Assembly (NCBI GenBank): GCA_947172415.1
Contig: OX359200.1
Coordinates: 7,076,001 to 7,140,000, forward strand
DNA: 64,000 nucleotides
Direction: 5' to 3'
DNA from: Chondrosia reniformis
Taxonomy: Eukaryota > Porifera > Demospongiae > Chondrillida > Chondrillidae
In this document: positions 19,424-48,033 of the stretch, piece by piece
Layout: each line of letters opens with the position of its first letter
How positions within the stretch are numbered: position 1 is the first letter of the stretch
Position numbers and translations under genes: made by a program
Notes under the pieces: model-generated
Seen by the model: the letters and a program-made list of their open reading frames with translations, nothing else
Databases searched by the model: none
Told to the model about the DNA's origin: nothing

Positions 19424-22400
19424 ATGACGTCTCACTACTACATCTTACTCCAAGATAGACCTATTGAGAGCAAATCTATGATCTCTGGTATTGCTAATAC
19501 GTTTATTGCAAGGACAAATTATGCTCTAAAAGGCTCTCTACTAGTGTTTGCTGGAAGAGCATCTTCCAATACAGGAGCTTATTTGAATTGTTATAATTTA
19601 GCTGAAGATCCTAACAAGAGAGTGGAGTGTGAAGCACACGAAGTGGAACACCTCACAATAGATGAATACGAGTGGCTCTTACCAATTAAACAACCAAGAG
19701 ATCGATACGAGTTTTATAATCAGAAAGAAAAGTACAAGACTGTCACTACTCTTGCAGTAGGAGATCGTGTGTGGCTGTCTATTCCTGAGGAGGTTCTTCA
19801 AAGTGTTGATCAACCCTCATGTTGCAGTGCTACTGTGAGGTATATTGGGCCAGTACCTGAGAAACAGGGTAATTACTTTGGACTGGAACTAGAGGTATTT
19901 ACTTTTTGAAACTTCCTATATGGAATGACTGTATGCCAACTGCATGGTACCCTCTTTGACTGAGTTATACTATATCCATTAACATGATGAGTATATCTTA
20001 ACTATCATCAGTATGTACATCTGATATAAATTGTACAGTAAATTTGAAACAGTGTATCTTAACTACATCTTTGAACAATAATTTTTAATAATAAAAATAA
20101 ATTTAATAAAAATTTGAATGCATATTTTATATGTCTCACTTGTAGAGACGGCTTGGTACTTGTGATGGAACTGTCAGAGGTGCACACTACTTTCATTGTA
20201 AAGATCTGTTTGGGACATTCCTACCAGCTAACCACATCATATCTAAATCAGCTGGTACATCACAAGTACCTCCAGTGTCAGTGGCCAAGCATCCTCATCC
20301 TCAGAAGAAGGAAGAGAAGAAAGGAAAGTTACTTGTTCCGGGTGACAAGTCATCTTCTGGTCGAGAGTTCAGAGAGGGAGATAGAGTGGCAGTGTATGAC
20401 TGTAAAGATAAGGAGCACATTGGTACAGTAAAGTGGGCTTATTCTGAGAAGGGAATTGATGGTTACATCATTGGAATAGAACTGGTGAGTTTATTACCAT
20501 TTTATCAGTTACTATAAACTTCACATATAAATACTTGTTTGTCTACATTTAATAGGATGAATATGTAAACAAAAAACAACTGTTCCAAGACCACATCAAG
20601 GGATGGGGACACTACTTCAAGAAACCAGATCATAGGAACCACACATATATTGTAATGCATGAGATGTTTGTGAGTATAGTGGGAAAGAGTGCGAAGGATA
20701 CCCCAGTAGATGATGGCTGGTTGAGAGTTGAGGAAGATCACTTCAAAAAGGATACCTTTCAGCCAACTGAATCAGTACGTAAAGCAGCTGCTGAAGTTAC
20801 TAAGAGAGAAAATAAAAGTGTGGCATCAATTCTAAAGGAAAGTGAAGTTGCAAGGAAGAATATTGAAGAGAATATACAGAAGCAAGCACTACTTGATGCT
20901 GGAGTACCTCCTGAAGAATTGGAGGAATTTGAGGAACAGAAGAAAAAGCTACAGCGATTTCAACAGGAAAAGGAACTACAGGATGAGTGGAAAAGAGAAG
21001 AGGAAAGGAAACTCCTAGAAAGGCACAAATTATCTGATCAAAGGGGAGCTCAGACCAAGTCTTCCTCAGCTATCAGACCAGAGGGTAGACCTCCCCTGCA
21101 TCCCCAACACTCTTATGAGGGACTGGTAGGATTGGAGAGGCAAAGTTCAAAGGAAAACAGGGATCACCAGCTTCATCATCAAGAAGAGGAAAATGGTTCA
21201 CAACATCTCCCCCGCAGACAGTACCACGGAGAGGTAAGTGATAGAAGTGGTCATCAGTATCCTCCTCCCAGACCTCGAGGCGTCTACGAGTTCTCAGACT
21301 GGACTGGGTATAGTGCAACATCACTTTATATATATTATTTATATGTTTACAGATTCCCTCATATTTAGATGCAAGAATAACAGCAATTCAAAATTGTGAG
21401 TTATAAAGGAATATTTAGAGTATTCTCTTTTCATCATATTATTGCTATCCCAAGTAATATTGCATGTATTGAGATATAGTATACCTTACAATTAGGTCAG
21501 TCGGTTAGCTTAATAGCATTTAAAATTTGAATTGTTGTAATAGTAGATGTATACTTTCCATGCTTAGTTCCCCAGGAAAGCAACAAAGCTTATCCAAACA
21601 GTGATCTACTACAAAAGATTGAGAACAACACTTCTGAACTGGAGAGATTGAAACAGATGCAGGAGGCAAGTGGCAAGTTGCAGGCTCAGCTGCAGACCTT
21701 GATTGGTGAACTCCAAAGAGAAAATGTAAAACTAAAATCGGAAACTGAAGAAAACACTAGAAATCTGAATCAGTCACGAGAAGAAAATAAGAGATTAAAC
21801 AATGAACACAAGAAGATGAAAGAGGAATACCACACTCTAAAGCAAGACCATGATCAGTTTGCCTCGTCCTTGGAAGAAATGCAGAAAGAAAACCAAATAC
21901 TTCGTGAGAGTAAGATAGAGGTGGAAAGATACTTAACTGAACGAATTTCACTGTTAGAAAAACAAGTTGAGACAATGCAGCCATCTTGGAACATCAATCC
22001 TACGAAATTGATAGTTACTGATGAAGAGCTTGGCAGAGGAGCTTATGGAGAAGTGAAGGTTGGGATGTATTGTGGAAGTCGTGTAGCCGTGAAAAGGGTC
22101 CATCAAGTCATCATCTCTGATTACAACAGAGACCAGTTCAAGCGTGAGATGCAGATAGTGTCCCGTCTCCGTCACCCTCACCTGGTCCTCTTCATAGGAG
22201 CAGTCACTACTGGTACACTGACCATAGTGACAGAGCTGATGGAGACCAGTCTACGTAAGCAGCTTGAGTTGGGTAGAATATCTGAGGAGCACATTCTCCC
22301 AATCAGTAGAGATGTAGCCTGTGCTCTGAACTACCTCCACTCTCTTCCTGAGCCCATCATCCATCGAGATGTCAGCAGTGCCAATGTCCTACTCAACTCA

Positions 22401-22748
22401 AAGCCTGTAGGAGGATGGATGGCCAAATTAGGAGACTTTGGATCAGCCAACTTTCTCGCTCAGCTGCGCACTGAAGCTCCAGGTTGTGTCGCCTATGCTG
22501 CCCCGGAATGCCAGACCCCTGCTCTACAAGGTCCCAAGATGGACGTCTACAGCTTTGGGATCCTACTGTTTGAAATGTTCACTGGAAAGTTGCCAGATCC
22601 AGACAGAGTACATCTGCTCTGTGTTGCCCCTCCTTCTGGCTCCACTGCCAAACAGGCCATAACTGAGATTGCCAAGATCTGTGTCTGTCAGAAGGTGGAT
22701 GATCGTCCAAATATGGCAGCTATATATGCTCGTTTGGGACAAATTTAA
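19424..22748 (+). CDS. Array unit 1: CAP-Gly x2 - coiled coil - kinase
   Basis: Four exons: 19424-19894, 20146-20484, 20556-21233 and 21576-22748, giving 886 residues. Exons 1-3 encode two CYLD-type CAP-Gly domains: [20 protein letters not shown] around residue 155, and [11 protein letters not shown] with IGTVKWAY and GYIIGIEL around 235-275. A charged helical stretch follows (EELEEFEEQKKKLQRFQQEK). There is no USP domain. The last exon gives a coiled coil and a TKL-like kinase with [26 protein letters not shown], an APE motif and DVYSFG. The junction uses acceptor ttccccag in phase 0. CAP-Gly domains bind microtubule or C-terminal EEY-type motifs in known proteins. Substrates are unknown. 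Units 2 and 3 suggest the USP was lost here. The start at 19424 is conserved in units 3 and 5 (MTS.YYILLQD). Confidence 0.85.
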
Positions 22749-26449: not shown

Positions 26450-29400
26450 ATGGCGTCTCAGTATTACATCTTACTCCAAGATAAGACTGTCGAGAGCAAA
26501 TCTATGATTCCTGGTATGAATCTCTTCGGATTGAATAAGAAAAATCTGGTAATTCAAGGCAGTCTATTGGTGTTTGCTGGAAGAACAGGATCAAATACAT
26601 CTTCCAACACTCGAGGTTCGGTTTATTATCATTTAGCTGAAAATCCTAGCAGGAGAGTGGAGTGTGAAGCACACGAAGTGGGACACCTCGCAATTAATGA
26701 CTACGAGTGGCTCTTACCAATTAACCAACCAAAAGATCGATACGAGTTTTATATTCAAAAAGAGAAGTACAAGACTGTCACTACTCTTGCAGTAGGAGAT
26801 CATGTGTGGCTGTCTGTTCCTGAGGAGGGTCATCAAGGTGTTGATCAATCCACATGTTGCAGTGCTTTTGTGAGGTATATCGGTCCAGTACCTGAGAAAC
26901 AGGGAAATTACTTTGGACTGGAATTAGAGGTACACTTTTTGAAACTATACAAAACTATATGGAATGACTGTATAACAACTGCATGGTATACTGTTTAATT
27001 GAAATATCCAGTTATAAGGAATGGTAATGACGAGTGTATCTTAACCACATCTGATATAAATTGTACAGTAGATTTGAAATTCATATTTTATATGTCTCAC
27101 TTGTAGAAACGGCTTGGTACTTGTGACGGAATTGTCAGAGGAAAACGCTACTTTCATTGTAAAAAACACTTTGGTATATTCTTACCAGGTAACCACATCA
27201 TATCCAAATCAGCACAAGCACCTCCAGTATCAGTGGCCAAGCATCCTCATCCTCAGAAGAAGGAAGAGAAGAAAGGAAAGTTACTTGTTTCTTCTGACAA
27301 GTCATCTTCTGGTCAAGACTTCAGAGAAGGAGATAGAGTGGCAGTGTATGACTGTAACAACCGGAAGCACATTGGTACAGTAAAGTGGGCTTATCCTGGG
27401 AAAGAGAAGGGATTTGATGGTTACATCATTGGAGTAGAACTGGTGAGTATATAACCATTTTAACAGTTACTATCAGTAAACTTTATGTACATATAAATAC
27501 TTCTGATTGCTTAAGTGTCTCAATTTAATAGGATTACTATGTAAACAAAAAGCAACAGTTCCAAAACCACATCAAGAGATTGGGACACTGCTTCAAGAAA
27601 CAAGATCATAACCACACCTATCTAGCTGTGCCTGAAATGATTGTGTATGAAGTAAAGGAGACTCAAGAAGAGTACATTCAATTCAAAAAAGTTAATACCA
27701 CCAAAAAATGTGATGCTCCTCCTCCTCCCAGACATGAGGCATCACAGAGGTCTCAGACTGGAGCTGAAGGTATTGCACAACATCGTCACTTGGAGATTGG
27801 GTCTAGAGTTGAAGCACACACTCCAGAAGGGGTACAGTATGGTACTATAAGATGGATAGGGACTTTCCCTGATGTGAAGCAGAAGATAGCTGGAGTGGAA
27901 CTGGTAAGTTTATTTTATTTAAATATGTATCCAGCGTCTTAACTCAAAGTATGCACATCTCATTATATCTGTATAGGATGACCAGATAGAAGATGCTGGT
28001 GATGGTTCATGGAATGGAGTTGATTACTTCTACTGTCCTAAAGGACATGCCATGTTTGTAGCTCTTGATAGACTCAGACCTGATGAGAGATTCTCACAGA
28101 AAGTACATGGAGATAATCGTAAGTGTAGTTTCTTCATGTACAATTGTGTATGTATGATGAATGATATTATATGTACTTATGCATACTCTTACTTACCTAC
28201 TTCTGTAGCTGTTGATGAAGCATTGCATAACAAACAAAGAGTGGTCCCGTCTGCTCCAGCTCCTGATGCAGAAAGCAAAGTAAACAAGTTCATTGGCACT
28301 CTTAAAGGTATTCAAGGCAACCAGAACTCGTGTTACCTGGATGCTACACTGTTTGGAATGTTTGCACTGAACAACTACTTTGATCAAATGTTACTCAAGG
28401 AAGCTCAGGATGAATATGGAAGGAATGTACAAGACATCATATCAACCGAGATTATATATCCACTGAGACAGTGAGTGTACCTGCTATATACTACTTACCT
28501 GCTCCCAGATAGACATTGCCAACTACATACGAATGTATGAAAATAATTAAGATTTTGCCAGAGTCAATTGGTTCCCTTATCAATATATTTATATTTCACT
28601 TACAGAAACACTGTAGTGTCCTATGATCCTGTGATGGAGTTGAGAAGAGCTCTTGACAAGTTAGAAAAAGTGAAAGGAATAACGCATGCAGAACAAGGTT
28701 TGTGATCTACTTTGATCATGTGTATGTACATACGTATACGTATATAGAACAGGTAACCAAGATTCTTTAGGTACTTACTATCAATTGCATATAACCTGAC
28801 CACAAGAATGTAATTAGCTAGGACATGGATATGTTGGTATAGGACTATTCAAGATACTTGCAGTATAGTTATAGCTTAGAGGTTAATTTGCTATCTTCAC
28901 TTAATTTTAGATCCTGAGGGGTTTCTGAATCTTTTATTTAACCATGCTTTGAGAATCAATCCATTTTTGAGATTACAGTAAGTAAGATCCTTTACTACTA
29001 CTAAAAGTCAAGATCTTGAACATACATGCAGTATGTAAATCATAGACTTCATACTTTTGTGTCTATTATATTATTTATTTAGTATATTGTAACTTGTACT
29101 GTATAATACAGTACAAGTTACAATATACTATATATATATATATATGTAGTATGAAATTATAGGTTTTACATTTAATCATACTTTTGTGTCCTGGGCCATT
29201 GTTCTTCAAGTAATTGCAAAGGCAGTCAAGTAGTGAATACTATCACTTTCTTCTGTTAATCCTTTCAGTCGTCCCTCTGGAGAAGATACTGAGTTCTTCC
29301 TTCAACTGTTTGTTGAACCAAGTGAGAAGAAGATATGGACGGTCAAAGAGATGTTAACTCAGTCACTAAAGAGTAAAGGAATCAGTTTTGCAAATGTACA

Positions 29401-31603
29401 TTTTATTATGCATACAGGACCATATCTTTTGTACTAGATTTTATGTGGTGTGTTTCCCAATGAATCACTTTGAGGAAGAACTTAACATGATATTTTATTA
29501 GTGTTTATTTTCCTTTTATTCCTCAGCCTCCCCTCAAGTTGATTATTCAGCTACCAAGATATGGGGAAGACTTTAAAGTCTTTGAGAGAATCTATCCAGA
29601 AATTAATTTGGATATATCAGAGCTGTGTAGGGACTATGGTGAGTTAGCTGTTATCTGAATCCATCTTTCCCATCTTCCATCAGCGACTTGCATGGAAGGT
29701 TTCAATATTGTTGTTCTGAAAGTTTACATATTATTATTATTATGCATTTCCATCTTTCAATTGTTTTAAGATCCAAGATGTTATTTCAATCACACACCAG
29801 CTGACAACCCTGTCTGCAAGATGCAGTTGATGTCAGTCATTTGTATTGAGACGAGTCACTATGTCTGCTTCACTAGTTTTGAAAAGAGGTGGTTCTTCTT
29901 TGACAGCATGGCCGACAGAACTGGTTAGTATCTATGTGTTCTATAAAAATTGAAGGGTCTAGTGTTATTCAACTATAATCTGTATACTACATACATACAA
30001 TGTTCCTCTGTATTCAGATACTGAGTTCAACATTCCTGAAGTCACAGAATGTCCAGAGATTGGACATGCTCTGGATAACATTGATGAGACAAGAAAGAAG
30101 GATCCCTCAACTCTTCATCCTCTTGTGAGGAGACTAGTGAAAGATGCCTCCATCTGTATCTATGTTGATCCTGAGGGGGACATGTATGGAGAGGAAGGTG
30201 ATGATAGTACTGATCCTGCTCCTGGTCATGGCCATGATCCTGATGAGTTTGGAAGGGATTGGGGTTAGTTGTTAATCTAAACAAATATTTCTAATTCTAT
30301 ATTGGTGAATACTGAATATTACGAACACTATTGCACTATAGTAACTCTGGATGATGACGCAAAGGTTGACGAAGAACAACCAAACCTAAATAGACAACTT
30401 TTGAGTCAGAACAAGGATATTATTCAACAAATTAATAGCTTGAGTTTGGAATTGCAAAATCTAAAACTGAAACAGGAATCTAGTGCAAGAAAACAATCAG
30501 ATCTTCAGAAAGAGAATGAAAGCTTTATTAGTGGAATTCAAAACTATGTTCAGCGCTTAACAGAAACTGAAGAAAACACTAGAAAGTTGGAGGATGACAT
30601 TCACCAGTTGACCCTCTCTCTGAATCAGTCACGAGAAGAAAATAAGAGATTAAACGATGAACACAAGAAGATGAAAGAGGAATACCAAACTCTAAAGCAA
30701 GACCACGATCAGTTTGCCTTGTCCTTGGAAGAAATGCAGAAAGAAAACCAAATACTTCGTGAGAGTAAGGTAGAGGTGGAAAGATACTTAACTGAACGAA
30801 TTTCACTGTTGGAGAAACAAGTTGAGACGATGCAGCCATCTTGGAACATCAATCCAACAAAATTGAGAGTTACTGATAAAGAGCTTGGCCGAGGAGCTTA
30901 TGGAGAAGTGAAGGTTGGGATGTATTGTGGAAGTCGTGTAGCCGTGAAAAGGGTCCATCAAGTCATCATCTCTGATTACAACAGAGACCAGTTCAAGCGT
31001 GAGATGCAGATAGTGTCCCGTCTCCGTCACCCTCACCTGATCCTCTTCATAGGAGCAGTCACTACTGGTACACTGACCATAGTGACAGAGCTGATGGAGA
31101 CCAGTCTACGTAAGCAGCTTGAGTTGGGTAGAATATCTGAGGAGCACATTCTCCTAATCAGTAGAGATGTAGCCTGTGCTCTGAACTACCTTCACTCTCT
31201 TCCTGAGCCCATCATCCATCGAGATGTCAGCAGTGCCAATGTCCTACTCAACTCAAAGCCTGGAGGAGGATGGATGGCCAAATTAGGAGACTTTGGATCA
31301 GCCAACTTTCTCGCTCAACTACGCACTGAAGCTCCAGGTTGTGTCGCCTATGCTGCCCCGGAATGCCAGACCCCTGCTCTACAAGGTCCCAAGATGGACG
31401 TCTACAGCTTTGGGATCCTACTGTTTGAAATGTTCACTGGAAAGTTGCCAGATCCAGGCAGAGTACATCTGCTCCGTGTGGCCCCTCCTTCTGGCTCCAC
31501 TACCAAACAGGCTGTGACTGAGATTGCCAAGATCTGTGTCTGTCAAAAGGTTGATGATCGTCCAAATATGGCAGCTATATATGCTCGTTTGGGACAAATT
31601 TAA
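26450..31603 (+). CDS. Array unit 2: CYLD-type deubiquitinase fused to a kinase
   Basis: Twelve exons, all in phase, give 1216 residues: 26450-26929, 27107-27442, 27532-27903, 27977-28118, 28209-28470, 28606-28697, 28911-28977, 29269-29395, 29527-29638, 29771-29923, 30018-30263 and 30342-31603. Order: three CAP-Gly domains (the third, [20 protein letters not shown] with [16 protein letters not shown], resembles the NEMO-binding one of CYLD), then a CYLD-family USP with Cys near residue 485 ([16 protein letters not shown]), His near 693 (IETSHYVCF) and Asp near 708 (FFDSMADR). The CYLD C-terminus is followed, via exon 12 in phase 1, by a coiled coil (about 800-960) and a kinase (about 975-1216). 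CYLD removes K63 and M1 ubiquitin chains. The B-box zinc insert of CYLD is missing here. Full CYLD plus kinase in one protein is unusual. Confidence 0.88.
29081..29129. repeat. Perfect 24-bp-arm palindrome in intron of unit 2
   Basis: agtatattgtaacttgtact plus gtat is followed, after one base, by its exact reverse complement, then an AT run. Unit 3 lacks it at the same intron position. Confidence 0.85.
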
Positions 31604-32136
31604 ATGTGTTTGGACTCACGTTTCTAGTTTTTTATATTCATACTGTATATATTTGTATTAGGATAATATTGGATGAATGTAAGAAACAGAAGTTGAAATG
31701 AAAACAAATGATAAAAAAATCTTTAAATACTATGCACAACGCTGTCTTTAATTTCCCCTAGCTAGTATAGTATAAATCATTAAATATACTTACGTATATA
31801 CAAAACTAATAGTTTTTAGCTGAAAATTTAAAGGAGCATGGGATTTTTAACCGTAGGACTTGGAGTAATCTACACCAATCACAAAGATTATGAAAATTAA
31901 CATTAACATATTATTAAAAGCTATCACCTGTCTATAGCTACATGTGTGCTGTATTATGTATTTATAATATAGCTACTAGCGAGTAATATAACTCATATAA
32001 TTAAACCTTAAGCTTGCTATACATCTGTGGTATAGTCCATAGTTATCTGTGCAAATTATTATTGTGAAAGAAGCATGTGCAGTCTTTATATATAGCTGTG
32101 TACTAAGCAGCCATCTTTCCCCTGCTATATGTACAG
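31604..32136. other. Spacer between unit 2 and the next NAGPA exon copy
   Basis: AT-rich 3' flank shared with units 1 and 3, then sequence (ctatacatctgtggtatagtc) shared with the spacer at 38160-38290. No gene seen. Confidence 0.7.
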
Positions 32137-32338
32137 TTTCCCCATGAGTCAGAAGGGTCTGGCTGCACTGGTCACACTGTCCCTTGGCTCTCTCCTCCTT
32201 CATGTGTTGCTGTGTGCTGTGACTCAGTGCTTGTGTAGCCACCTCCATAAAAGGAAGAAGAGACAGGCCAGAGATAAGAGGAGGAAGAAGTACTACACCA
32301 GACTTCAGATTGACGAGTGCTCTGACAGCAATCAGTGA
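32137..32338 (+). pseudogene. NAGPA membrane-exon copy 3
   Basis: Only the final NAGPA exon (membrane helix plus basic tail, ending ECSDSNQ) is present, with its acceptor tatatgtacag. An in-frame ATG inside the old acceptor (ATG TAC AGT TTC at 32129) leaves a 69-codon open frame. No upstream NAGPA exons are nearby. It is either a relic of tandem duplication or a small membrane protein. Confidence 0.75.
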
Positions 32339-32469
32339 TCAGATTGGTTGAATGTTTCTTTTATGTTGCTCTGTATATAACTGCATGCTTTGATTTTATA
32401 ATTTATTTGCCATTTTAATGATGTAACGTGTTCACCAGTTCTTTATAAATATGGGGGTGATTGGTGTGA

Positions 32470-32540
32470 TGACGTCATAAGGTTATTTCTCTTACAAGTT
32501 TGCAGGGCGTTGGAAAGGTAATATATATCGAATTTTTGTA
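32470..32540 (+). promoter_or_regulatory. CRE/ATF site and leader donor of unit 3
   Basis: TGACGTCA at 32470-32477, 199 bp before the ATG, the same distance as in unit 1. The leader donor ggaaag/gtaatat and the acceptor ttgttcag before the ATG are conserved. Confidence 0.65.
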
Positions 32541-32675
32541 GTATCGTAGATTTTGTTTCAACATAATATCTACGTTTGTAACGTAAAGCACCAACTGAAT
32601 ATTGTATCCATTTATACCTTTGGAAGGTTACGATCGTTGTTAGCCCTTTTTATTAATTGTTCAGGTTTAAGGAAA

Positions 32676-35600
32676 ATGACGTCTCACTACTACATCTTAC
32701 TTCAAGATAAACAAATAGAGTATAAATCTGTGATCTCTGGTATTGCTAATACGATTATCGGAAGGATAAATTATGCTCTAAAAGGCTCTCTACTAGAGTT
32801 TAATGGAAGAGCATCTACCAGTACAGGAGCTTATTTGAATCGTTACCATTTAGCTGAAGATCCTAGCATGAGAGTGAAGTGTGAAGCACACGAAGTGGAA
32901 CACCTCACAATTAATGAATACGAGTGGCTCTTACCAATTCAACAACCGAAAGATCGATACGAGTTTTATAATCAGAAAGAGAAGTACACGATTGTTACGA
33001 CTCTAGTAGGAGATCGTGTGTGGGTGTCTGTTCCTGAGGAGGATCCATTCCTGAGTGTTGATCAATCCACATGTTGCAGTGCTACTGTGAGATATATTGG
33101 TTCAGTAACTGAGAAACAGGGAAATTACTTTGGACTGGAATTAGAGGTATTTACAAGAAGGAATAGTGATGATGAGTGTATCTTAACTACATTTAAAAAT
33201 ATAAATTGTACAGTAAATTTGAAATGCATATTTTATATGTCTCACTTGTAGAAACGGCTTGGTACCTGTGATGGCTCTATCAGAGGAAAGTGCTACTTTC
33301 ATTGTAAAGATAACTTTGGTATATTCCTACCAGCTAACCACATCATATCTAAATCAGCTGGTACATCACAAGTACTTCCAGTGTCAGTGGCCATGTATCC
33401 TCATCCTCAGAAGAAGGAAGAGAAGAAGGGAAAGTTACTTGTTTCTTCTGACAAGTCATCTTCTGGTCGGGAGTTCAGGGAGGGAGATAGAGTTACAGTA
33501 TATGACTGTAAAGACAAGGAGCACATTGGTACAGTAAAGTGGGCTTGTTCTGGGAAAGAGAAGGGAATTTATGGTTACATCATTGGAATAGAATTAGTGA
33601 GTTATTACCATTTTAACAGTTACTATAAATTTCACATATAAATACTTCTGATTGCTTGTCTCAATTTAATAGAATTACTGTGCAAACAAAAAACAACTGT
33701 TCCAAGACCACATCAAGGGATGGGGATACTACTTCAAGAAACAAGATTATAAGAACCACACCTATCTAGCTATGTCTGAGATGTTTGTGAGAAAGGATGA
33801 TGACAGGGTGACTCTTGATGAAGATCTCTTCAAAAAGGATACCTTAAGTGTGGAATCAGTTCTAAAGGAAAGTGAAGTTGCTAGGAAGAAGATTGAAGAG
33901 GATGTACAGAAGCAAGCACTACTTGATGCTGGAGGAGTTGATTACTTTAACTGTTCTAGAGGACATGCCATGTTTGTAGCTCTTGATAAACTCAGACCTG
34001 ATGAGAGATTCTCACAGAAAGTACATGGAGATAATCGTAAGTGTAGTTTCTTCATATATAATTATGTATGTATGAAGAATACCTCCTATTATACTTACCT
34101 ACTTCTGTAGCTGTTGATGAAGCTGTAGGTAACCAACCAAGAGTGGTAGAATTTGCTTCAGCTCCTGATAGGGAAAGCAAAGTTAAGAAATTTGTTGGTC
34201 AATTAAGAGGTATTCAAGGCAATCAGAACTCGTGTTACCTGGATGCTACACTGTTTGCAATGTTTGCACTGAACAACTACTTTGATCAAATGTTACTCGA
34301 GGAAGCTCAGGATGAATATGGAAGGAATGTACAAGACATCATATCAACCAAGATCATATATCCACTGAGACAGTGAGTGTACCTGATATTGTGTGCTATA
34401 TACTACCTGCTATCAGATAGACATTACCAACTACGAATGTAAGCTTTAAGTTTAATCAATTTGTCTACCAGCTCCCTTATCAATATATTATTTATATTTC
34501 ACTTGCTATAGAAACACTGTAGTGTCTTATGATCCTGTGATGGAGTTGAGAAGAGCTCTTGACAAGTTAGGAAAAGTGAAAGGATTCATTCATATGGAAC
34601 AAGGTTCGTGATCTACTTTGATCATACATGACTACAATAGTAACCAAGAATCTTTGAGTAGTGACAATCAATTGCATGACTGTGTCTTTTAAAATATCAT
34701 TCACATATGAAAACTAGGATAAGTATATGTACATTAGTTACGCAAGTTATGTAATTATGTAGCTATAGAGTTGACATGTAAGATGTTAATTTATATTGAT
34801 TTCACTCAATTTCAGATCCTGAGGAGTTTTTGAATCTTTTATTTAAACATGCTTTGAGAATCAAGCCATTTCTGAGATTACAGTAAGTAAGATCCTTTAC
34901 TACTACTATAAGTCAAGAACATACATACATACGTACGTACATACATGCATGTAGTATGTAATTTACATTTAATCATACTTTTGTGTCCTGGGCCATTGTT
35001 TTTCAAGTAATTGCAATGTAGTCGAGTAGTACTATTATTTTCTTCTGTTCATCCTTTCAGTCGTCCCTCTGGAGAAGATACTGAGTTCTTCCTTCAACTG
35101 TTTGTTGAGCCAAGTAAGAAGAAGATATGGACGGTCAAAGAAATGTTAACTAAGTCACTGAAGAGTGAAGGAATCAGTTTTACAAAGGTACATTTTATTA
35201 TACAGAACTATCATTAAATCATCTTTCTATTTTACATATTATGCTTCCTTATATCTTTGAAGAAGAACTTAACATTATATGATATTTTATTAATGTTCAT
35301 TTTCCTTTTATTCCTCAGCCTCCCCTCAAGCTGATTATTCAGCTACCAATATATGGGAAAGACTTTAAAATCTTTGAGAGGATCTATCCAGAAATTAACT
35401 TAGATATATCAGAGCTGTGTAGGGACTACGGTGAGTAAGAGAAATTACATTTATGTATATAACAATATATGCAAAAGTATAACAATCAATTTTTATACCA
35501 AACCAACCAAGGGAATGAAGTCTTATCTTGGCTGGGGGCTGATGTCCTATTAAAATGGCAACCAGTCCCAGATAGAAAATTATCACAGGCAGCTTTTTGT

Positions 35601-37818
35601 GGTTCTTTGATGAATTTTCCAGCCAAGATATAAGACTTTAGTCACTTCACTGGTTTGGTGTAATAGGTACAGTAATTTATCATATTTTCAGCCTTTTCAA
35701 AATATCCTACGTAGCTCTTTACAATTATACATGCATATAGCTCCACTTGTTCCAGATGATGTTACATGTGTCCTCTGTGGCGAAAGCAGTCCGAGTCTTT
35801 CTTGTTCTGATTGTGGAAGTAGAAATGATCCCTTGTTCAAACAAGAAGTCATGTACTTCTGTGAAGACTGCTCTGAAAGAGTACACCATCTTGAGAAGCG
35901 GTTAAACCATCGTGTCAAGCCAATAGTGTACACACCAGCTGACAACCCTGTCTGCAAGATGCAGTTGATGTCAGTCATTTGTATTGAGAAGAGTCACTAT
36001 GTCTGCTTCACTCGCTTTGAAAAGAGGTGGTTCTTCTTTGACAGCATGGCCGACAGAACTGGTTAGTAGAGGTTGAGTGTGTACCTGCATGTGTTAATAT
36101 TATATTAAATAGCAGTCCTTAGAATATGTATATGTACAGTATATGTTGTCTTTAGACACTGAGTTTAACATTCCTGAAGTCTCAGAATGTCCGGAGATTG
36201 GACATGCTCTGGATAACATTGATGAGACAAGAAAGAAGGATCCCTCAACTCTTCATCCTCTTGTGAGGAGACTAGTGAAAGATGCCTCCATCTGTATCTA
36301 TGTTGATCCTGAGGGGGACATGTTTGGAGAGGAAGATGATAGTTTCAATCATTGTACTGATCCTGCTCCTGGTCGTGGTCATGATCCTGCTCCTGGTCGT
36401 GGTCATGATCCTGCTCCTGGTCGTGGTCGTGATCCTGCTCCTGGTCGTGATTTTGATCCTGATGAGTTTGGAAGGAATTTGGGTTAGTTGTTATTCTAAA
36501 CAAATATTTCTAATTCTGTATTGGTGAATACTGAATATACACTATCGCACTATACATACATGTAGTAACTCTGGATGATGACGCAAAGGTTGATGAAGAC
36601 CAACCAAAGCTAAATAGACAACTTTTGAGTCAGAACAAGGATATTATTCAACAAATTAATAGCTTGAGTTTGGAATTGCAAAATCTGAAGCTGAAACAGG
36701 AATCTAGTGCAAGAAAGCAATCAGATCTTCAGAAAGAGAATGCAAGCTTAACTAGTGGAATTCAAAACTATGTTCAGTGCTTAACAGAAACTGAAGAAAA
36801 CACTAGAAAGTTGGAGGATGACGTTCACCAGTTGACCCTCTCCCTGAATCAGTCACGAGAAGAAAATAAGAGATTAAACGATGAACATAAGAAGATGAAA
36901 GAGGAATACCAGCAGGACCACAATCAGTTTGCCTCGTCCTTGGAAGAAATGCAGAAAGAAAACCAAATACTTCGTGAGAGTAGGGTAGAGGTGGAAAGAT
37001 ACTTAACTGAACGAATTTCACTGTTGGAGAAACAAGTTGAGACGATGCAGCCATCTTGGAACATCAATCCTACAAAATTGAGAGTTACTGATGAAGAGCT
37101 TGGCCGAGGAGCTTATGGAGAAGTAAAGGTTGGAATGTATTGTGGAGGTCATGTAGCCGTGAAAAGGGTCCATCAAGTCATCATCTCTGATTACAACAGA
37201 GACCAGTTCAAGCGTGAGATGCAGATAGTGTCCCGTCTCCGTCACCCTCACCTGGTCCTCTTCATAGGAGCAGTCACTACTGGTACACTGACCATAGTGA
37301 CAGAGCTGATGGAGACCAGTCTACGTAAGCAGCTTGAGTTGGGTAGAATATCTGATGAGCACATTATCCCAATCAGTAGAGATGTAGCCTGTGCTCTGAA
37401 CTACCTCCACTCTCTTCCTGAGCCCATCATCCATCGAGATGTCAGCAGTGCCAATGTCCTACTCAACTCAAAGCCTGGAGGAGGATGGATGGCCAAATTA
37501 GGAGACTTTGGATCAGCCAACTTTCTTGCTCAACTGAGCACAGTAGCTCCAGGTTGTGTCGCCTATGCTGCCCCGGAATGCCAGACCCCTGCTCTACAAG
37601 GTCCCAAGATGGACGTCTACAGCTTTGGGATCCTACTGTTTGAAATGTTCACTGGAAAGTTGCCAGATCCAGACAGAGTACATCTGCTCCGTGTGGCCCC
37701 TCCTTCTGGCTCCACTGCTAAACAGGCCATGACTGAGATTGCCAAGATCTGTGTCTGTCAAAAGGTGGATGATCGTCCAAATATGGCAGCTGTATATGCT
37801 CGTTTGGGACAAATTTAA
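32676..37818 (+). CDS. Array unit 3: CYLD-type deubiquitinase with B-box, fused to a kinase
   Basis: Eleven exons give 1246 residues in one frame: 32676-33146, 33252-33596, 33673-34036, 34111-34372, 34512-34603, 34816-34882, 35061-35187, 35319-35430, 35741-36061, 36156-36482 and 36566-37818. There are two full CAP-Gly domains. The third is reduced to its C-terminal half, joined directly to a helical stretch (LLDAGGVDYFNCSRGHAMFV). The USP triad is near Cys435 ([12 protein letters not shown]), His699 (IEKSHYVCF) and Asp714 (FFDSMADR). Exon 9 keeps the CYLD zinc module (CVLCGESSPSLSCSDC, FCEDCSERVHHLEKRLNH), which unit 2 lacks. After the USP comes a run of DPAPGRGH repeats, then coiled coil and kinase, both very close to unit 2. 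It is probably the unit closest to ancestral CYLD. Confidence 0.88.
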
Positions 37819-38321
37819 ATGTATTTGAACTCGACTTTCTAGTTTTTTACCTTTATAATATTCATACTGTATATATTTGTATTGAGATATATTGGATGAA
37901 TGTAAGAAACAGAAGTTGAAATGAAAACAATATATATAAAAGAGCACAACAGAAAACAATCTTTGTTGAGATGAAAAAAAGCTTTATACTGTATATAGTT
38001 ATATATGCACAGCTGTCTTTTAATTTCCCTTATAGTTAGCTAGTATAGTATATATAGTATTAAATTACAAATTTAAAAATTTATAGCTGAAAAAGTAGCA
38101 TGACATTTGTAATCTGCACCAATCACGAAGGTCATGAAAATTAATATTATGTATTTATAATATAGCTACTAGCGAGTAATATAACTCATATATATAATTA
38201 AACCTTGCTATACATCTGTGGTATAGTCCATAGTTATCCGTTCAAATTATTATTGTAAAAGAAGCATGCACAGTCTTTACTAAGCAGCCATCTTTCCTTT
38301 GCTATATGTATATATGTACAG
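37819..38321. other. Spacer after unit 3, no gene seen
   Basis: AT-rich. It shares its first 150 bp with the unit 1 and 2 3' flanks and its last part with 31950-32110. Confidence 0.7.
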
Positions 38322-39258: not shown

Positions 39259-42200
39259 ATGGCGTCTCAGTATTACATCTTACTCCAAGATAAGATTATT
39301 GAGAGCAAATCTATGATTCCTGATCTCTTTGAATTGAAAAAGAAAAATCTGGTAATTCAAGGCAGTCTATTGGTGTTTGCTGGAACCGGAAGAACAGGAT
39401 CAAATACATCTTCCAACACTCGAGGTTCGGTTTATTACCATTTAGCTGAAGATCCTAGCAGGAGAGTGAAGTGTGAAGCACACGACGTGGAACACCTCAC
39501 AATTAATGACTACGAGTGGCTCCTACCAATTAACCAACCAAAAGATCGATACGAGTTTTATAATCAGAAGGAGAAGTATAATACTGTCACTACTCTTGCA
39601 GTAGGAGATCGTGTGTGGGTGTTTGATCCTGAGAAGGGTCATCAAGTTGCTCAAAGTGGCAGTAAGTCTAAATTTTGCAGTGCTACTGTAAAGTATACTG
39701 GTCCAGTACCTGAGAAACAAGGAAATTACTTTGGACTGGAATTAGAGGTAAAATGTTTTAGAAGTTTTGTAGATGTTGGGTTTAGGTGAGTTTAGGTCGT
39801 TAACTTCAAAGAGATAATTTAGTCAATGTGTTTTCTAACTTAATTGTGATAGAATAAGGATTTCTTCTAACTGTGTTGGCTTGACAAATATTTTGGTTGA
39901 AATGTAGTATTGGTATGATGGCCAATCCCTCTTTTCACTTTCACTTCACTTTACACCGTATGTAGAACACTACTACTGAGGGTATATGTGTCTATAATAA
40001 TAATAATAAAGTGACACATGCATGTGACACTGTATGCACTATGCCAAGCCAGGCCCATGAGTCACTGATTATATATAGTTTAGGAGGTACAAATGTCTGT
40101 CTATATTTCCATAATTTGAGAGCTTCTTGCTACTTCCTTCTATTATACTATTGCAATTGTCCACTCTCCAGCCTATTGTCCGAGGAAAGCACTGTAATGA
40201 TCAAGCTGGTATAACCTACCTACCAGCTAACCACATCTTATCCAAATCAGATGAAGCAGAGACGATATCTGGTCCGTCCTCATGTGCTATTCCTCAGAAG
40301 AAAAGAGAGCTTCTTGTGCCTTCTGAAAAGTTATTTTCTGGTTGTTTCTTCAGAGAGGGAGATAGAGTTACAGTATATGATTGTAACAACCAGAAGCACA
40401 TTGGTACAGTAAAGTGGGCTTATCCTGGGAAAGAGAAGGGAATTGATGGTTACATTATTGGAGTAGAACTGGTGAGTATTATACGTATACCTACAAACAT
40501 TTACACGTACATATTATATAAGTTATGTACTATGCTTCACTATATAGGATGAGCCTGTACAAAGAAAACTATTTTATGATTGTATCACAAATATAGGACA
40601 TCTATTTGAACAGCCAGACTATAAGAAACACACTTACCTTGCAGTACCCGAGAGCGTGATAAGTACAGCACAGGGAGTACTTGTTGAAGAGCTGAAGGAA
40701 CATGAGGAACACCTAAATAGCACAGTACCCGAGAGCGTGGTAAGTACAGCACAGGGAGTACTTGTTGAAGAGCTGAAGGAACATGAGGAACACCTAAATA
40801 GCACTCCAGGATTGGAGAGGCAAGATTCAAAGGAAAACAGGGATCACCAGCTTGATCACCCAGAAGAAGAAACTGGTTCACAACGTCTCCCCCCCAGACA
40901 GTACCACGGAGAGGGAAGTGGTAGAAGTGGACCACGTGATACTCCTCCTCCTCCCAGACCTGCATCACAGAGATATCAGACTAGAGCTGAAGGTATTGCA
41001 CAATAGTTTTTGAGTGTTGTCAGTTGTTTTGCTAGTCAAATTTCAGTAGCCAAACTTATAGCTAACTACTAATTGAACAAATTACAGTAAGTGCATGCTA
41101 TATATATGAATAATCGAAGTGATAATCAAACCACAAGTATAATCAGTAAAAAACATCATGAAAAGGGAAAGAGGCAATATTACTGGAAAGCGAACCCAGA
41201 CAACTGATTATTTTGCTTATCATCATAGCCTTTGCATGGCTCAGTGTAATTAACTACCCTAGTTCATTGTGAGGGCTCATTCTCACTTACTCACTTACTC
41301 TAGACTGTAGCCTCCATCTTCACTTTCTATGAAATCGCAAGTTTTTCACTTGTGGTAGATTAAAAAGTGAAGACAGTCATCCAAACTTACCATCTTTGAA
41401 GTGTACCACACTGATGAGCCCAAACAGCTGTCTGTGGTTCTTGGATGACTGGGAGGCGATCACTGGTTGGCAATTTAATAGGAATTAATTTGCCAAGATT
41501 AGACTGCGGTCATTTGGCAGGTTTGGCGTAATAAGTTTCCGGTGATTATTTTGCTTATCAATGAATATATTTTATATGATCCCAAAATAATATGGTTCTA
41601 TATGTTATCTATATGTTTATTTAACATGTTAGTTTATTTGATATTGATTGTGATGGTATATGTATGAGTCTTTAAACCTGTCACCTTCCCTTAATTTAGT
41701 TTCTGCCTTAAAACAAGAATTGGAAAGTCTTAAGGAATCACTTAAAAGGTCTGACCTAACCATATCACAAGAAAGAGATGGAAAGCGTAAACTAGCAGCC
41801 TCACTGAGGAAATCAGAAGAAGAAAGGGAAAGTCTTCGCAAGAAAGTGGTTCAGATGAACAAAGAGAAACAGCATCTCACTGCAAACCTTAACAAGGTGT
41901 CGGAGGAGAAACAGCGTTTTATTGCAACCCTTATCAAGGTGTCGGAGGAGAAACAGCGTCTCACTGCAATCCTTACCAAGGTGTCGGAGGAGAAACAGCA
42001 TCTCACTGCAATCCTTACCAAGGTGTCGGAGGAGAAACAGCTTCTTACTACAACCCTTAGTGAGGTGACAGAGCATCTCACCACAAACCTTACAGAGATG
42101 ACAGAGGAGAAAAAGTGTCTTACTGCAAACCTTACTGAGATGACAGAGGAGAAACAGCGTCTTACTGCAAACCTTACAGAGATGACAGAGGTGAAAGAGC

Positions 42201-44023
42201 ATCTTACTGCAAACCTTACAGAGATGACAGAGGTGAAAGAGCATCTTACTGCAAACCTTACAGAGATGACAGAGGTGAAAGAGCATCTCACTGCAAACCT
42301 TACAGAGATGACAGAGGTGAAAGAGCATCTTACTGCAAACCTTACAGAGATGACAGAGGAGAAACAGCGTCTCACTGCAAACCTTACTGAGATGACAGAG
42401 GAGAAACAGCGTCTCACTGCAAACCTTACAGAGGTGACAGAGGAGAAACAGCGTCTCACTGCAAACCTTACAGAGGTGACAGAGGAGAAAGAGCATCTTA
42501 CTGCAAACCTTACAGAGATGACAGAGGAGAAACAGCGTCTCACTGCAAACCTTACAGAGGTGACAGAGGAGAAAGAGCATCTTACTGCAAACCTTACAGA
42601 GATGACAGAGGAGAAACAGCGTCTCACTGCAAACCTTACAGAGATGACAGAGGAGAAAGAGCATCTTACTGCAATCCTTACAGAGATGACAGAGGAGAAA
42701 CAGCATCTTACTGCAAACCTTACAGAGATGACAGAGGAGAAACAGCGTCTTACTGCAAACCTTGCAGAGATGACAGAGGAGAAACAGCATCTTACTGCAA
42801 ACCTTACAGAGATGACAGAGGTGAAAGAGCATCTTACTGCAAACCTTACTGAGATGACAGAGGTGAAAGAGCATCTTACTGCAAACCTTACAGAGATGAC
42901 AGAGGAGAAACAGCGTCTTACTGCAAACCTTACAGAGATGACAGAGGTGAAAGAGCATCTTACTGCAAACCTTACTGAGGTGATAGAGGAGAAACAGCAT
43001 CTCAGGGCAAACCTTACAGAGGTGAAGAAGAAGAAAAAGCAGCTCAAGAAAATAAAAGAATATCTCACTTCAAACCTTACTGAGGTGACAGAGGAGAAGC
43101 AGCGTCTTAGTGCAAACCTTGCAGAAACGACAGAGGTGAAAGAGCGTCTTACTGTAAACCTTACAGAAGCTAGAGAAGAGAAAAGCAGAATGGAACACAC
43201 TCTAAGAGATAACACTGCCTACATCTCCAAACTGGAGGGTCAACTGAACCAGTTGGAGAAGTCTTGGGAGATCCGTCCCGGTAGCCTGAGAATAACCTCA
43301 GTTTGTCTTGGGAAAGGATCCTGGGGAGAAGTCAAAGTTGGGTTTTATCAACATACAAAAGTTGCAGTGAAAGAAATTCACAAGATCATCATCTCTGATC
43401 ATATTAAAGGCTTGTTCAAGCGTGAGATGCAGATAGCCTCCCTTCTTCGTCACCCTCACCTGGTCCAGTTCATAGGAGCAGTCACTACTGGTACACTGAA
43501 GATAGTGACAGAGCTGATGGAGACCAGTCTACGTAAGCAGCTTGAGTTGGGTAGAATATCTGATGAGCACATTCTCCCAATCAGTAGAGATGTAGCCTGT
43601 GCTCTGAACTACCTTCACTCTCTTCCTGAGCCCATCATCCATCGAGATGTCAGCAGTGCCAATGTCCTACTCAACTCAAAGCCTGTAGGAGGGTGGATGG
43701 CCAAATTAGGAGACTTTGGATCAGCCAACTTTCAAATTATTATTGGTACAATAGGGCCAGGTGCTCCACTGTATTCAGCTCCTGAGAGTGCTAATCCACA
43801 ATACCAAGGACCCAAAATGGATGTGTACAGCTATGGTGTCCTCCTGTTGGAGGTGTGTAATGGGATGCCCCACCCCCAGGATCTGGAGGGTGTTAGACTA
43901 AGTGTTTCCAAATGGAAGCAGCCAAAGAGAGTATTTGGAGAAATTGCTAAAAACTGTACCATTCAGAGCATAAAGGATCGCCCAACAATGAGTGATGTCT
44001 TATCTAGATTGAAGAAACTTTAA
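39259..44023 (+). CDS. Array unit 4: CAP-Gly - long repeat coiled coil - kinase
   Basis: Four exons give 1185 residues: 39259-39747, 40172-40471, 40548-40992 and 41700-44023. The first CAP-Gly is eroded: exon 2 starts at PIVRGKHCN and lacks the KRLGTCDG part. The second is intact (FREGDRVTVYDCNNQKHIGT). Exon 3 contains an 87-bp direct duplication (ESVxSTAQGVLVEELKEHEE). It leaves through GAAG/gtattg just before a TAG at 41004, and this matches the phase of exon 4. Exon 4 encodes about 30 copies of a 14-residue repeat of type TEMTEEKQRLTANL, two heptads each, then a kinase of the second type ([41 protein letters not shown]). No USP. It probably forms a very long rod with a C-terminal kinase. 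Confidence 0.82.
41121..41275 (-). repeat. tRNA-derived SINE, copy 2
   Basis: On the minus strand: B-box-like GGGTTCGCTTTCC, an A-box-like region before it, and the same tail as copy 1 (ATGATG, TTTTTTACTGATTA, ACTTGTGGT). Lies in the last intron of unit 4. Confidence 0.55.
42055..43020. repeat. 42-bp coding minisatellite
   Basis: More than 20 tandem copies of a 42-bp unit (cttacagagatgacagagga plus gaaacagcgtctcactgcaaac) in frame in unit 4. Variants alternate EEKQRL, EEKEHL and VKEHL. It keeps long antisense frames open on the minus strand, which are not genes. Confidence 0.92.
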
Positions 44024-44879: not shown

Positions 44880-47800
44880 ATGACGTCTCGCTATTACATC
44901 TTACTCCAAGATAAGCCTATTGAGAGCGAATCTATGTCATTATTCCAGAGGCTTAGTGTTATTTACGTTAATACGTTTTTTGGAAGGACAGACGCTCTAA
45001 AAGGCTCTCTACTAGTGTTTGCTGGAAGAACATCTTCCAGTACAGGAGCTCATTTGAATCATTACCATTTAGCTGAAGATCCTAACAAGGGAGTGGAGTG
45101 TGAAGCACACGAAGTGGAACACCTCACAATTAATGACTACGTGTGGCTGTTACCAATTAACCAACCAAAAGATCGATACGAGTTTTATAATCAGAAGGAG
45201 AAGTACAAGACTGTCACTACTCTTGCAGTAGAAGATCGTGTGTGGGTGTCTGTTCCTGAGGAGGGTTATCAAGGTGTTGATCAATTCACATGTTGCATTG
45301 CTACTGTGAGATATATCGGTCCAGTACCTGAGAAACAGGGAAATTACTTTGGACTGGAATTAGAGGTACACTTTTTGAAACTTCTTATCTATACATGGAA
45401 TGATTGAATGTCAACTGCATGGTATGCTTAACTTAACTACATCTGATATTACAGTTATTTGAATTACATATTTTATTTGTCTCACTTGTAGAAACGGCTT
45501 GGTACTTGTGATGGGACTGTCAGAGAAAAGCGCTACTTTCATTGTAGAGATCTGTATGGTATATACCTACCAGCTAACCACATCATATCTAAATCAGCAG
45601 GTACATCACAAGTACCTTCAGTGTCAGAGGCCATGCATCCTCATCCTCAGAAGAAGGTAGAGAAGAAAGGAAAGTTACTTGTTCCTTGTGACAAGTCATC
45701 TTCTGGTCGGGAGTTCAGAGAAGGAGATAGAGTGGCAGTGTATGACTATAAAGACAAGGAGCACATTGGTACAGTAAAGTGGGCTTATCCTGGGAAAGAG
45801 AAGGGAATTGATGGTTACATTATTGGAGTAGAACTGGTGAGTATTATACGTACCTACAAACATATATACGTACTGGTGAGTTAATTACCATTTTAACAGT
45901 TATACTATCAACTATAAATTTCACATATAAATACGTCTGATAGTTTGTCTCCATTTAATAGAATTACTATGTAAACAAAAAGCAACTGTTCCAAGACCTC
46001 ATCAATGGATGGGAACATTACTTCAAGAAACCAGATTATAGGAACCACACTTATCTAACTATGCATGAGATGTTTGTGAGTACAGTGGGAAAGAGTGCAA
46101 AGGAGACCCCAGTAGATGGTGACTGGGAGAATATTAAAGAAGATCACTTCAAAAAGGATACCTTTCAACCAACTGAATCGGTACGTGTAGCAGCTGCTGA
46201 AGTTACTAAGAGAGAAAATGAAAGTGTGGAATCAGTTCTAAAGGAAAGTGAGGTTGTTAGGAAGAAGATTGAAGAGGATGTACAGAAGCAATTACTAATT
46301 GATGCTGGTGTACCTCCTGAAGAATTGAAGGAACAGAAGAAACAACTACAGCAATTTCAGCAGGAAAAGGAACTAAAGGATGAGCGGAGAAGAGAAAAGG
46401 AAAGGAAATTCCCAGAAAGACACAAGTTAGCTGATCAAAGGGGAGCTCAGACCAAGTCTTCCTCAGCTATCAGACCAGAGAGTAGACCTCCCCGATATGT
46501 TTATGGAGAGGGAAGTGGTAAAAGTGGGTCACGTGATACTCCTCCTCCTCCCAGACATAAGAGATCTCAGAGGTCTCAGACTGGAGCTGAGGGTATTGCA
46601 CAACATCACTTGGAAATCGGGTCTAGAGTTGAAGTTGAAGTGAATGGACATAATCGTAAGTGTAGTTTCTTCATATATATATGTAGTACTTTTATATGTC
46701 TGAAGAATACCTGATTGATTTTGGAATGTTTTTGAATTCTAAGGTGTCTCTTTCCAGGTAACTTCATGCATGAATGTACTTACGTACATATATGTTTATG
46801 TATCCATGGAGCCATATTTTATATTAATTATGTATTTTGTAACTTGTACATGCAGTTTACGTCCTAAAACAAGAAAATATAACTCTTCAGGAGTCACTGA
46901 AACAATCTGATAAAGTATTAGCTAATGAAAGACAAGAGAAATCAAAACTAGCCACATTACTGAGAGAATCAGAGGAAAAAAGAAGCAGATTAATCAGTGA
47001 AAATGTCAGCTTAGCTAATGCAAAAACTAAAATCATAAAGGAGAAAGAAGATCTCACTGCAACACTTGCAGAGGTGACAAAGAAGAAAAAACAACTCAAG
47101 AAGAAAACACATCTGCTCACTTCAAACCTTACTGAGATGACAGAAGAGAAACTACAACTTGAAGCAATCCTTAGAGAAATTAGAGAAGAGAAAAACAGAA
47201 TGGAACACACTCTAAGAGATAACACTGTCTATATCTCCAAACTGGAGGGTCAACTGAACCAGTTGAAGAGGTCTTGGGAGATCCTTCCTGGTAGCCTGAG
47301 AATAACCTCAGTTTGTCTTGGGAAAGGATCCTGGGGAGAAGTCAAAGTTGGGTTTTATCAACATACAAAAGTTGCAGTAAAACAAATTTATGATATCATT
47401 ATATCTGATCATAATAAAGGCTTGTTCAAGCGTGAGATGCAGATAGCCTCTAGAATCCGTCACCCTCACCTGGTCCTCTTCATAGGAGCAGTCACTACTG
47501 GTACACTGACCATAGTGACAGAGCTGATGGAGACCAGTCTACGTAAGCAGCTTGAGTTGGGTAGAATATCTGATGAGCACATTCTCCCAATCAGTAGAGA
47601 TGTAGCCTGTGCTCTGAACTACCTTCACTCTCTTCCTGAGCCCATCATCCATCGAGATGTCAGCAGTGCCAATGTCCTACTCAACTCAAAGCCTGGAGGA
47701 GGGTGGATGGCCAAATTAGGAGACTTTGGATCAGCCAACTTTCAAATCATTATTGGTACAATAGGGCCAGGTGCTCCACTGTATTCAGCTCCTGAGAGTG

Positions 47801-48033
47801 CTAATCCACAATACCAAGGACCCAAAATGGATGTGTACAGCTATGGTGTCCTCCTGTTGGAGGTGTGTAATGGGATGCCCCACCCCCAGGATCTGGAGGG
47901 TGTTCGACTAAGTGTTTCCAAATGGAAGCAGCCAAAGAGAGTATTTGGAGAAATCGCAAAAGACTGTACCATTCAGAACATGAAGGATCGGCTAACAATG
48001 AATGACATCTTATCTAGGTTGAAGAAACTTTAA
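44880..48033 (+). CDS. Array unit 5: CAP-Gly x2 - coiled coil - kinase
   Basis: Four exons give 900 residues: 44880-45365, 45492-45836, 45962-46655 and 46856-48033. Two CAP-Gly domains ([40 protein letters not shown]), a charged helical region and a Pro-rich stretch follow. A remnant of the third CAP-Gly ([17 protein letters not shown]) joins the old end of that domain, so its middle is deleted. The USP is absent. The last exon has a coiled coil (short version of the unit 4 type, EVTKKKKQLKKK) and a second-type kinase: [34 protein letters not shown]. Its neighbour downstream is the intact ALDH on the other strand. Expression and activity are unknown. Confidence 0.85.

Follow-up and report, generated by a model that had tools for sequence, protein, structure and literature searches.

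Two adjacent genes in a 64-kb stretch of the genome of the sponge Chondrosia reniformis (the window; C12:7076001-7140000, where C12 is contig OX359200.1) each appear to encode a single chain made up of a CYLD head (the CYLD-like N-terminal domain and CAP-Gly domains), a CYLD-type deubiquitinase domain (USP), a coiled coil, and a TKL/TK-like protein kinase. By this reading, to which we assign a probability of roughly two in three from sequence, the catalytic half of CYLD would have recombined into a tandem family of head-kinase genes. The two genes are units 2 and 3 of five tandem units on the plus strand of the window. In all five, the CYLD-like N-terminal domain and CAP-Gly domains come first and a single large exon encoding coiled coil and kinase (the kinase exon) comes last; only units 2 and 3 carry a CYLD USP in between. 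Coordinates without a contig name are positions in the window (Table 1). Gene models were built by hand with exon ends set at GT/AG, which border all 40 introns of the six models; the start of unit 3 exon 9 (35741) was set by comparison with the canonical CYLD gene of this genome.

Reading frame and domains of units 2 and 3

As the initial annotation had proposed, the last USP exon joins the kinase exon exactly at 30263/30342 in unit 2 and 36482/36566 in unit 3. Both joins are GT/AG and phase 1, with the reading frame uninterrupted, and the resulting models contain no stops or frameshifts in 1216 (unit 2) and 1246 (unit 3) codons. Thus, at the DNA level, the CYLD part does run in phase into coiled coil and kinase. 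The shared phase had been taken as an argument against chance. This argument is weak, as the two copies are duplicates and not independent cases (their join introns are 95.9% identical); the joins of units 1, 4, and 5 are in phases 0, 1, and 1.

We characterized the CYLD half by profile and structure-based comparison. Pfam, applied to unit 3 as a 1241-residue model five residues short of the final one, detected CAP_GLY and Pkinase in both units, with two CAP_GLY stretches in unit 2 and one in unit 3. UCH was above cut-off in unit 3 only, and the unit 2 USP went undetected by Pfam alone. Comparison of the unit 2 head with 14 aligned CYLD heads using hhalign gave a probability of 100% over 415 columns. 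The unit 3 USP (query residues 421-773) matched the solved human CYLD structure 2vhf (E 7.8e-72), and its Cys, His, and Asp boxes line up with those of the structure. The boxes (NSCYLD, SHYV, and FFDSMAD) are present in both units, as expected from the initial annotation. The complete CYLD order that this annotation described does not hold, since the unit 2 USP lacks the B-box (no CxxC, compared with three in unit 3 and three in the canonical gene) and unit 3 retains only the second half of CAP-Gly3, which unit 2 has kept.

Both units might cleave K63/M1 ubiquitin chains as CYLD does. For human CYLD, removal of the B-box is described as leaving deubiquitinase activity without obvious change, the B-box being needed for self-association (PMC5584213), while CAP-Gly3 is described as required for activity (PMC8511506). 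By analogy, unit 2 would be expected to have the better enzyme. The two units share with CYLD (human 2vhf and the canonical host copy) the N-terminal domain, the CAP-Gly domains, and the USP boxes, as well as the B-box in unit 3. They differ in running on into coiled coil and kinase, whereas the canonical host copy stops after its DPAPGRG repeats. Because units 2 and 3 read in phase past the USP into the kinase, we class them as CYLD-derived mosaics and not as ordinary CYLD.

The exon after the join showed heptad periodicity (103 and 102 degrees in units 2 and 3; 0/200 shuffles each). An AlphaFold model of unit 2 exon 12, computed from 13 sequences, consists of a 148-residue helix (residues 16-163) followed by a bilobal kinase, with a mean predicted local distance difference test score (pLDDT) of 79.9 and values below 50 at residues 1-25 and 319-331. 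In unit 2, the Pkinase and PK_Tyr_Ser-Thr profiles matched above cut-off (124.3 and 120.1 bits); NCBIfam matches were generic ones to kinases and coiled coils, all below cut-off. K202, H292, R293, D294, D316, and G318, which correspond to the catalytic Lys, HRD, and the Asp and Gly of DFG, were invariant in 13 aligned rows. The kinase of units 2 and 3 is, as predicted from these matches, an intact TKL/TK-like protein kinase. It shares the bilobal fold, catalytic Lys, HRD, and DFG Asp/Gly with TKL/TK kinases of known structure (CTR1, TNNI3K, and RAF by sequence; Src, LCK, and B-Raf by fold), and differs in its catalytic loop, which reads HRDVSSAN. The usual loop is HRDLKxxN or HRDLxxxN.

Comparison of units 2 and 3 revealed constraint in the USP, coiled coil, and kinase. 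Synonymous (Ks) and nonsynonymous (Ka) divergence were 0.185 and 0.061 in the USP (Ka/Ks 0.33, Fisher p 6e-6), and Ka/Ks was 0.27 in the coiled coil (Fisher p 0.009) and 0.40 in the kinase (Fisher p 0.029). The copies differ by indels of 9 nucleotides (nt) in the kinase exon, 9, 75, and 3 nt in the last CYLD exon, and 10 and 5 nt in the join intron.

Mosaic make-up and relatives in other animals

We searched the genome (117,379,552 bases, 15 contigs) with the USP and recovered 20 stretches, all within three genes: units 2 and 3 and a canonical CYLD gene (C12:7155598-7161153), which starts 41,780 nt beyond the end of unit 3. This gene has 11 exons and encodes 1101 residues, ending in a DPAPGRG repeat tail, which it has in common with unit 3, and then a stop; it contains no kinase. 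The view that CYLD proteins end right after the USP is borne out by this host copy, apart from its short repeat tail, and by nearly all USP proteins compared; one coral model, described below, departs from it.

Units 2 and 3 are, from their alignments, mosaics in which a CYLD catalytic block with its introns lies inside the tandem CYLD-head/coiled-coil/kinase family. Their USPs are 91.1% (unit 2) and 88.5% (unit 3) identical to canonical CYLD. In local alignments, unit 2 positions 27786-29053, 29178-29643, and 29792-30242 matched canonical CYLD at 87, 74, and 84%, introns included, while 26450-27645 matched unit 1 at 79 and 83% and 30619-31603 matched unit 1 at 97%. The 5′ end of unit 2 was 76-89% identical to units 1, 3, 4, and 5, and 74-79% identical to canonical CYLD, in exons only. 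Consistent with this pattern, Ks to canonical CYLD was 0.65 (unit 2) and 0.62 (unit 3) for exons 1-2 and 0.155 and 0.184 for the USP. The low USP values fit recent USP gain or gene conversion in units 2 and 3. In unit 5, a footprint at 46638-46712 comprises the kept CYLD exon-4 donor and the start of intron 4, which fits USP loss in units 1, 4, and 5. In unit 1, the third-exon donor (GAG/GTAAGT, 21233) is followed by an acceptor at 21576. A further unit outside the window (C12:7143062-7146584) has a CYLD head including the end of CAP-Gly3, then the kinase exon; another (C12 7254730-7258063, minus strand) has one TAG within the kinase match. Judged from these sequences, genes of CYLD type in which coiled coil and kinase stand in place of the USP make up a family at this locus; units 2 and 3 hold both the USP and the coiled-coil kinase. 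The genome also contains coiled-coil kinase relatives without a detectable CYLD head (C12:6711076, 6734747, and 6738393, C14:4144156, and C5:1169897).

We then compared the units with proteins of other animals. A first protein search scored the 7992 candidates sharing most words and gave 700 matches at E <= 0.001. Among the best 120 of these, one protein, Acropora muricata P0003, combined USP and kinase; a second search added Stylophora pistillata P0141 among the best 120 of 1116 matches, bringing such proteins to 2 of the 236 collected. P0003 (1551 residues, labelled "myosin heavy chain, striated muscle-like isoform X2") contains CAP-Gly, USP with B-box, coiled coil, and kinase in this order. 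Thus, it resembles units 2 and 3 in domain order, in its CYLD USP with B-box, and in a kinase of the same broad clade, and differs in lacking the CYLD N-terminal domain and CAP-Gly1-2 and in a coiled coil about four times longer. Stylophora P0141, annotated as CYLD, likewise combines parts of CYLD with a same-clade kinase in one model. We rejected it as a second coral fusion, as the order is reversed with the kinase first, the catalytic Cys is Ser, and neither the His nor the Asp box is present; it is probably a merger of neighbours or a broken copy. The architecture of units 2 and 3 is a new variant assembled from CYLD and a kinase clade of sponges and corals; should the coral model be correct, it is not confined to Chondrosia. 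Listings of open-access papers contained no account of a chain combining CYLD with a kinase.

Other proteins carry the head and kinase without the USP. P0006 and Dysidea avara P0042 consist of a CYLD head, a coiled coil, and a kinase. Like units 1, 4, and 5 and C12:7143062-7146584, they resemble units 2 and 3 in head, coiled coil, and broad kinase clade, and differ from them in lacking a USP. Units 2 and 3, as modelled, belong to the CYLD-head/coiled-coil/kinase family if this is taken to comprise every chain that combines a CYLD head with a sponge-cnidarian-clade kinase. P0006 (1066 residues) comes from a 3519-nt contig. As these genes have introns in Chondrosia, the contig is probably a transcript, in which case it would show head-kinase joining in RNA. 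The heads of Stylophora P0004 and P0005 gave suggestive hhalign probabilities of 85 and 76% to the CYLD N-terminal domain; those of P0016 and P0048 gave no hhalign match to it.

A kinase tree (30 rows with long branches; locus L037/L041, cut by a TAG to under the 170-residue limit, was left out) placed the sponge, Acropora P0003, P0006, and Dysidea P0042 kinases in one 25-row clade (100/99). Within it, 11 Chondrosia rows and P0006 formed a clade (95/98), as did the coral rows (100/99), and Dysidea grouped with Halichondria and others (86/88). The sponge-cnidarian kinases stood apart from plant, Mollivirus, and one other kinase, on long branches. In a USP tree (21 rows), units 2 and 3 grouped with canonical CYLD (97/98) and P0003 with Acropora CYLD (98/98), so that P0003 was probably joined independently of the sponge genes. 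Both trees group by lineage, which points either to independent joining events in the sponge and coral lineages or to USP conversion within each of them. The same grouping speaks against a single ancient fusion kept in sponge and coral, although gene conversion could have hidden one. Taken as they stand, the trees suggest repeated joining of USP and kinase. If so, a two-enzyme chain that seems to have arisen repeatedly from CYLD and one kinase clade, in sponge and in coral, would serve as a "Rosetta stone" tying a little-studied kinase family to CYLD signalling. The heads gave a tree of 17 rows with good support on 3 of 14 inner branches; in it, units 1-5 grouped with host CYLD (93/97), and P0006 and Dysidea were placed elsewhere on long branches, and one ancient head-kinase family is unsupported. 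Since these two heads lie apart in a poorly resolved tree, the head, too, may have been joined repeatedly.

In Amphimedon and Halichondria, kinases of this broad clade are fused to Kelch-repeat proteins (P0017, P0021, P0053, P0056, and others), indicating that this kinase has moved between heads. Pfam also detected a CYLD-type USP with a Death domain in P0125 (Acropora digitifera), P0129 (Montipora foliosa), and P0132 (Patiria miniata); P0132 and P0133 each have two USP copies by eye.

Splicing at the join and competing explanations

A single chain from each gene is the best-supported reading, and as sequence the fusion is sound at the DNA level. This reading draws on the short join introns (78 and 83 nt), the lack of a nearby kinase start codon, the constraint on both halves, the coral order, and the head-kinase proteins of Dysidea and P0006. 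Neither join intron contains AATAAA or ATTAAA. Within the kinase exon, the first 109 codons contain no in-frame ATG; residue 110, inside the coiled coil, is the first in-frame Met, and in-frame stops lie just upstream of the exon at 30278 and 36532. A separate kinase gene behind a CYLD gene, transcribed from its own promoter and translated from its own start codon, with the join as a modelling error, is thus highly improbable. Open frames by themselves are no proof of joining, and same-clade kinases without a detectable CYLD head do exist in the genome; against this, units 1, 4, and 5 and C12:7143062-7146584 likewise carry the kinase exon behind CYLD-head exons.

Several results weigh against the single chain. 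In both units, an unspliced join intron reads straight into TAG after the USP exon. The join splice sites are canonical yet weak. Using scores built on 38 introns of related genes, in which homologous sites are counted several times, the join donors of units 2 and 3 outscored 9/38 and 2/38 of the other donors, and the acceptors 1/38 and 9/38 of the other acceptors. Among background sites, 554 of 2335 AGs scored at least as high as the unit 2 acceptor and 364 of 1756 GTs at least as high as the unit 3 donor. Each copy is missing one CYLD module (the B-box in unit 2, the first half of CAP-Gly3 in unit 3), making decay possible. The constraint may predate the fusion, as the distance between the USPs of units 2 and 3 is no smaller than that of either from canonical CYLD. 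The coral parallel comes from one predicted model, and we found no second sponge fusion, with a kinase domain in 0 of 52 USP-query matches, a weak negative as this search missed P0003 too. The preference of the initial annotation for one chain over a separate kinase start is upheld by the coding sequence and weakened by the splice sites. That annotation had mentioned neither the immediate TAG, the weak sites, the missing modules, nor the placement of these mosaics within a CYLD-head kinase family. A transcript ending after the USP, which it had coupled to a separate kinase promoter, needs none, since intron retention would suffice.

The donor of exon 4 (ATC/GTAAGT) scored 8.9, and the two join donors scored 6.5 and 3.8, with a matrix whose inclusion of sister copies raises all three. 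This donor is homologous to the one joined to the kinase exon in unit 5, and the end of exon 4 and the kinase acceptor share phase 1. A kinase-only product of units 2 and 3 is therefore possible, as is, given the immediate TAG, a deubiquitinase-only product through intron retention. That these are the sole outputs, the join intron being normally retained so that CYLD ends at TAG and the kinase exon being spliced only to exon 4 to give a USP-less CAP-Gly kinase like unit 5, would account for the weak join sites and strong exon-4 donor; we consider it unlikely. The hexamer GTTAGT of the join donor recurs as the donor of the preceding exon in units 2 and 3 and canonical CYLD; the DPDEFGR codons at the join donor are kept in both copies and missing from canonical CYLD; and in the coral model the two halves are joined. 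The join stretch is present twice genome-wide, in units 2 and 3. We give slightly less credence to the idea that the two units are functionless, decaying by-products of recent unequal crossing-over, transcribed or not. The tandem arrangement of five units, the weak join sites, and the module losses would fit such chimeras, and CAP-Gly3, truncated in unit 3, is described as required for the activity of human CYLD (PMC8511506). Decay is difficult to reconcile with the open frames, the Ka/Ks ratios of USP, coiled coil, and kinase, and the kept catalytic boxes, and loss of the B-box is reported to have no obvious effect on human CYLD deubiquitinase activity (PMC5584213).

A model that accommodates the single chain is that the catalytic half of the neighbouring CYLD gene, introns included, recombined with the tandem CYLD-head/coiled-coil-kinase genes, and that the joined transcript is expressed. 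RNA sequencing of the same specimen is listed (ERR10177766; PMC12181767). The head and CAP-Gly domains would bring the protein to ubiquitin chains or microtubules; ubiquitin binding by CAP-Gly2 and 3 is described for CYLD (PMC8511506). The USP would trim K63/M1 chains, and the coiled coil would dimerize the protein and thereby allow activation of the kinase in trans; in unit 2, the coiled coil could replace the B-box for self-association. Possible kinase substrates are the surrounding complex or a linker outside the USP in the protein's own CYLD half. According to the same account, phosphorylation of human CYLD at two sites outside the USP, Ser568 and Ser418, activates the enzyme; at receptor complexes its targets are K63/M1 chains, and it trims the ubiquitin carried by the kinase RIPK1 (PMC8511506). 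The choice between deubiquitinase only, both, or kinase only might then depend on how the weak join is spliced, possibly together with splicing of exon 4 to the kinase exon. A tentative extension, which we regard as possible and do not favour, is that each gene yields all three products and that the sponge and coral pairings arose independently because CYLD and the kinase family, in which CYLD heads are frequent, act on the same ubiquitin-coated complexes. If so, a ubiquitin eraser and a kinase on one chain would form a self-limiting signalling unit; the "self-contained signalling switch" of the initial annotation is likewise what such a chain might be.

Features of the locus

Table 1. Coordinates of the five units and their parts in the window
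Feature	Position	Strand	Description
Unit 1	19424..22748	+	CYLD head, coiled coil, kinase, without USP; 886 residues; join phase 0
Unit 1 exons	19424-19894, 20146-20484, 20556-21233, 21576-22748	+	
Unit 2 gene	26450..31603	+	CYLD N-terminal domain, CAP-Gly1-3, USP without B-box, coiled coil, kinase; 12 exons, 1216 residues
Unit 2 exons 1-2	26450-26929, 27107-27442	+	CYLD N-terminal domain, CAP-Gly1, CAP-Gly2 start
Unit 2 exons 3-4	27532-27903, 27977-28118	+	CAP-Gly2 end, linker, CAP-Gly3; exon-4 donor strong, phase 1
Unit 2 USP exons 5-8	28209-28470, 28606-28697, 28911-28977, 29269-29395	+	
Unit 2 USP exons 9-11	29527-29638, 29771-29923, 30018-30263	+	
Unit 2 USP catalytic codons	Cys 28331, His 29857, Asp 29902	+	
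Unit 2 join intron	30264..30341	+	78 nt; TAG stop when unspliced
Unit 2 exon 12	30342..31603	+	coiled coil and kinase; HRD Asp codon 31223
Unit 3 gene	32676..37818	+	CYLD N-terminal domain, CAP-Gly1-2, truncated CAP-Gly3, USP with B-box, DPAPGRG repeats, coiled coil, kinase; 11 exons, 1246 residues
Unit 3 USP exons, first five	34111-34372, 34512-34603, 34816-34882, 35061-35187, 35319-35430	+	
Unit 3 USP exons, last two	35741-36061 (with B-box), 36156-36482	+	
Unit 3 USP catalytic codons	Cys 34233, His 35995	+	
Unit 3 join intron	36483..36565	+	83 nt; TAG stop when unspliced
Unit 3 exon 11	36566..37818	+	coiled coil and kinase
Unit 4	39259..44023	+	CYLD head, very long repetitive coiled coil, kinase, without USP; 1185 residues; join phase 1
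Unit 5	44880..48033	+	CYLD head, coiled coil, kinase, without USP; 900 residues; join phase 1

The coiled coil of unit 4 (41700-43260, inside a 2.3-kb exon) is highly repetitive, with repeats of about 14 codons by eye. Each unit is preceded by a copy of a short exon (18862-19065, 25654-25857, 32135-32338, 38320-38523, and 44268-44471), in which we recognized by eye a transmembrane stretch and a tail ending in CSDSNQ. Upstream of unit 1, 15960-16391 and 16963-17760 encode NAGPA (phosphodiester glycosidase) and EGF-type domains, and the short exon looks like the 3′ end of this upstream NAGPA/EGF-like gene, copied along with the duplications. The reading frame at 14491-15021, also upstream of unit 1, had no Pfam match. 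Two aldehyde dehydrogenase copies on the minus strand (23236-24126 and 48388-49929) flank units 2-5; the frame of the first spans profile positions 219-461 only. Near the start of the window, 2729-3511 and 4017-4763 form a tandem pair, possibly encoding a secreted protein, of which the first copy had no Pfam match.

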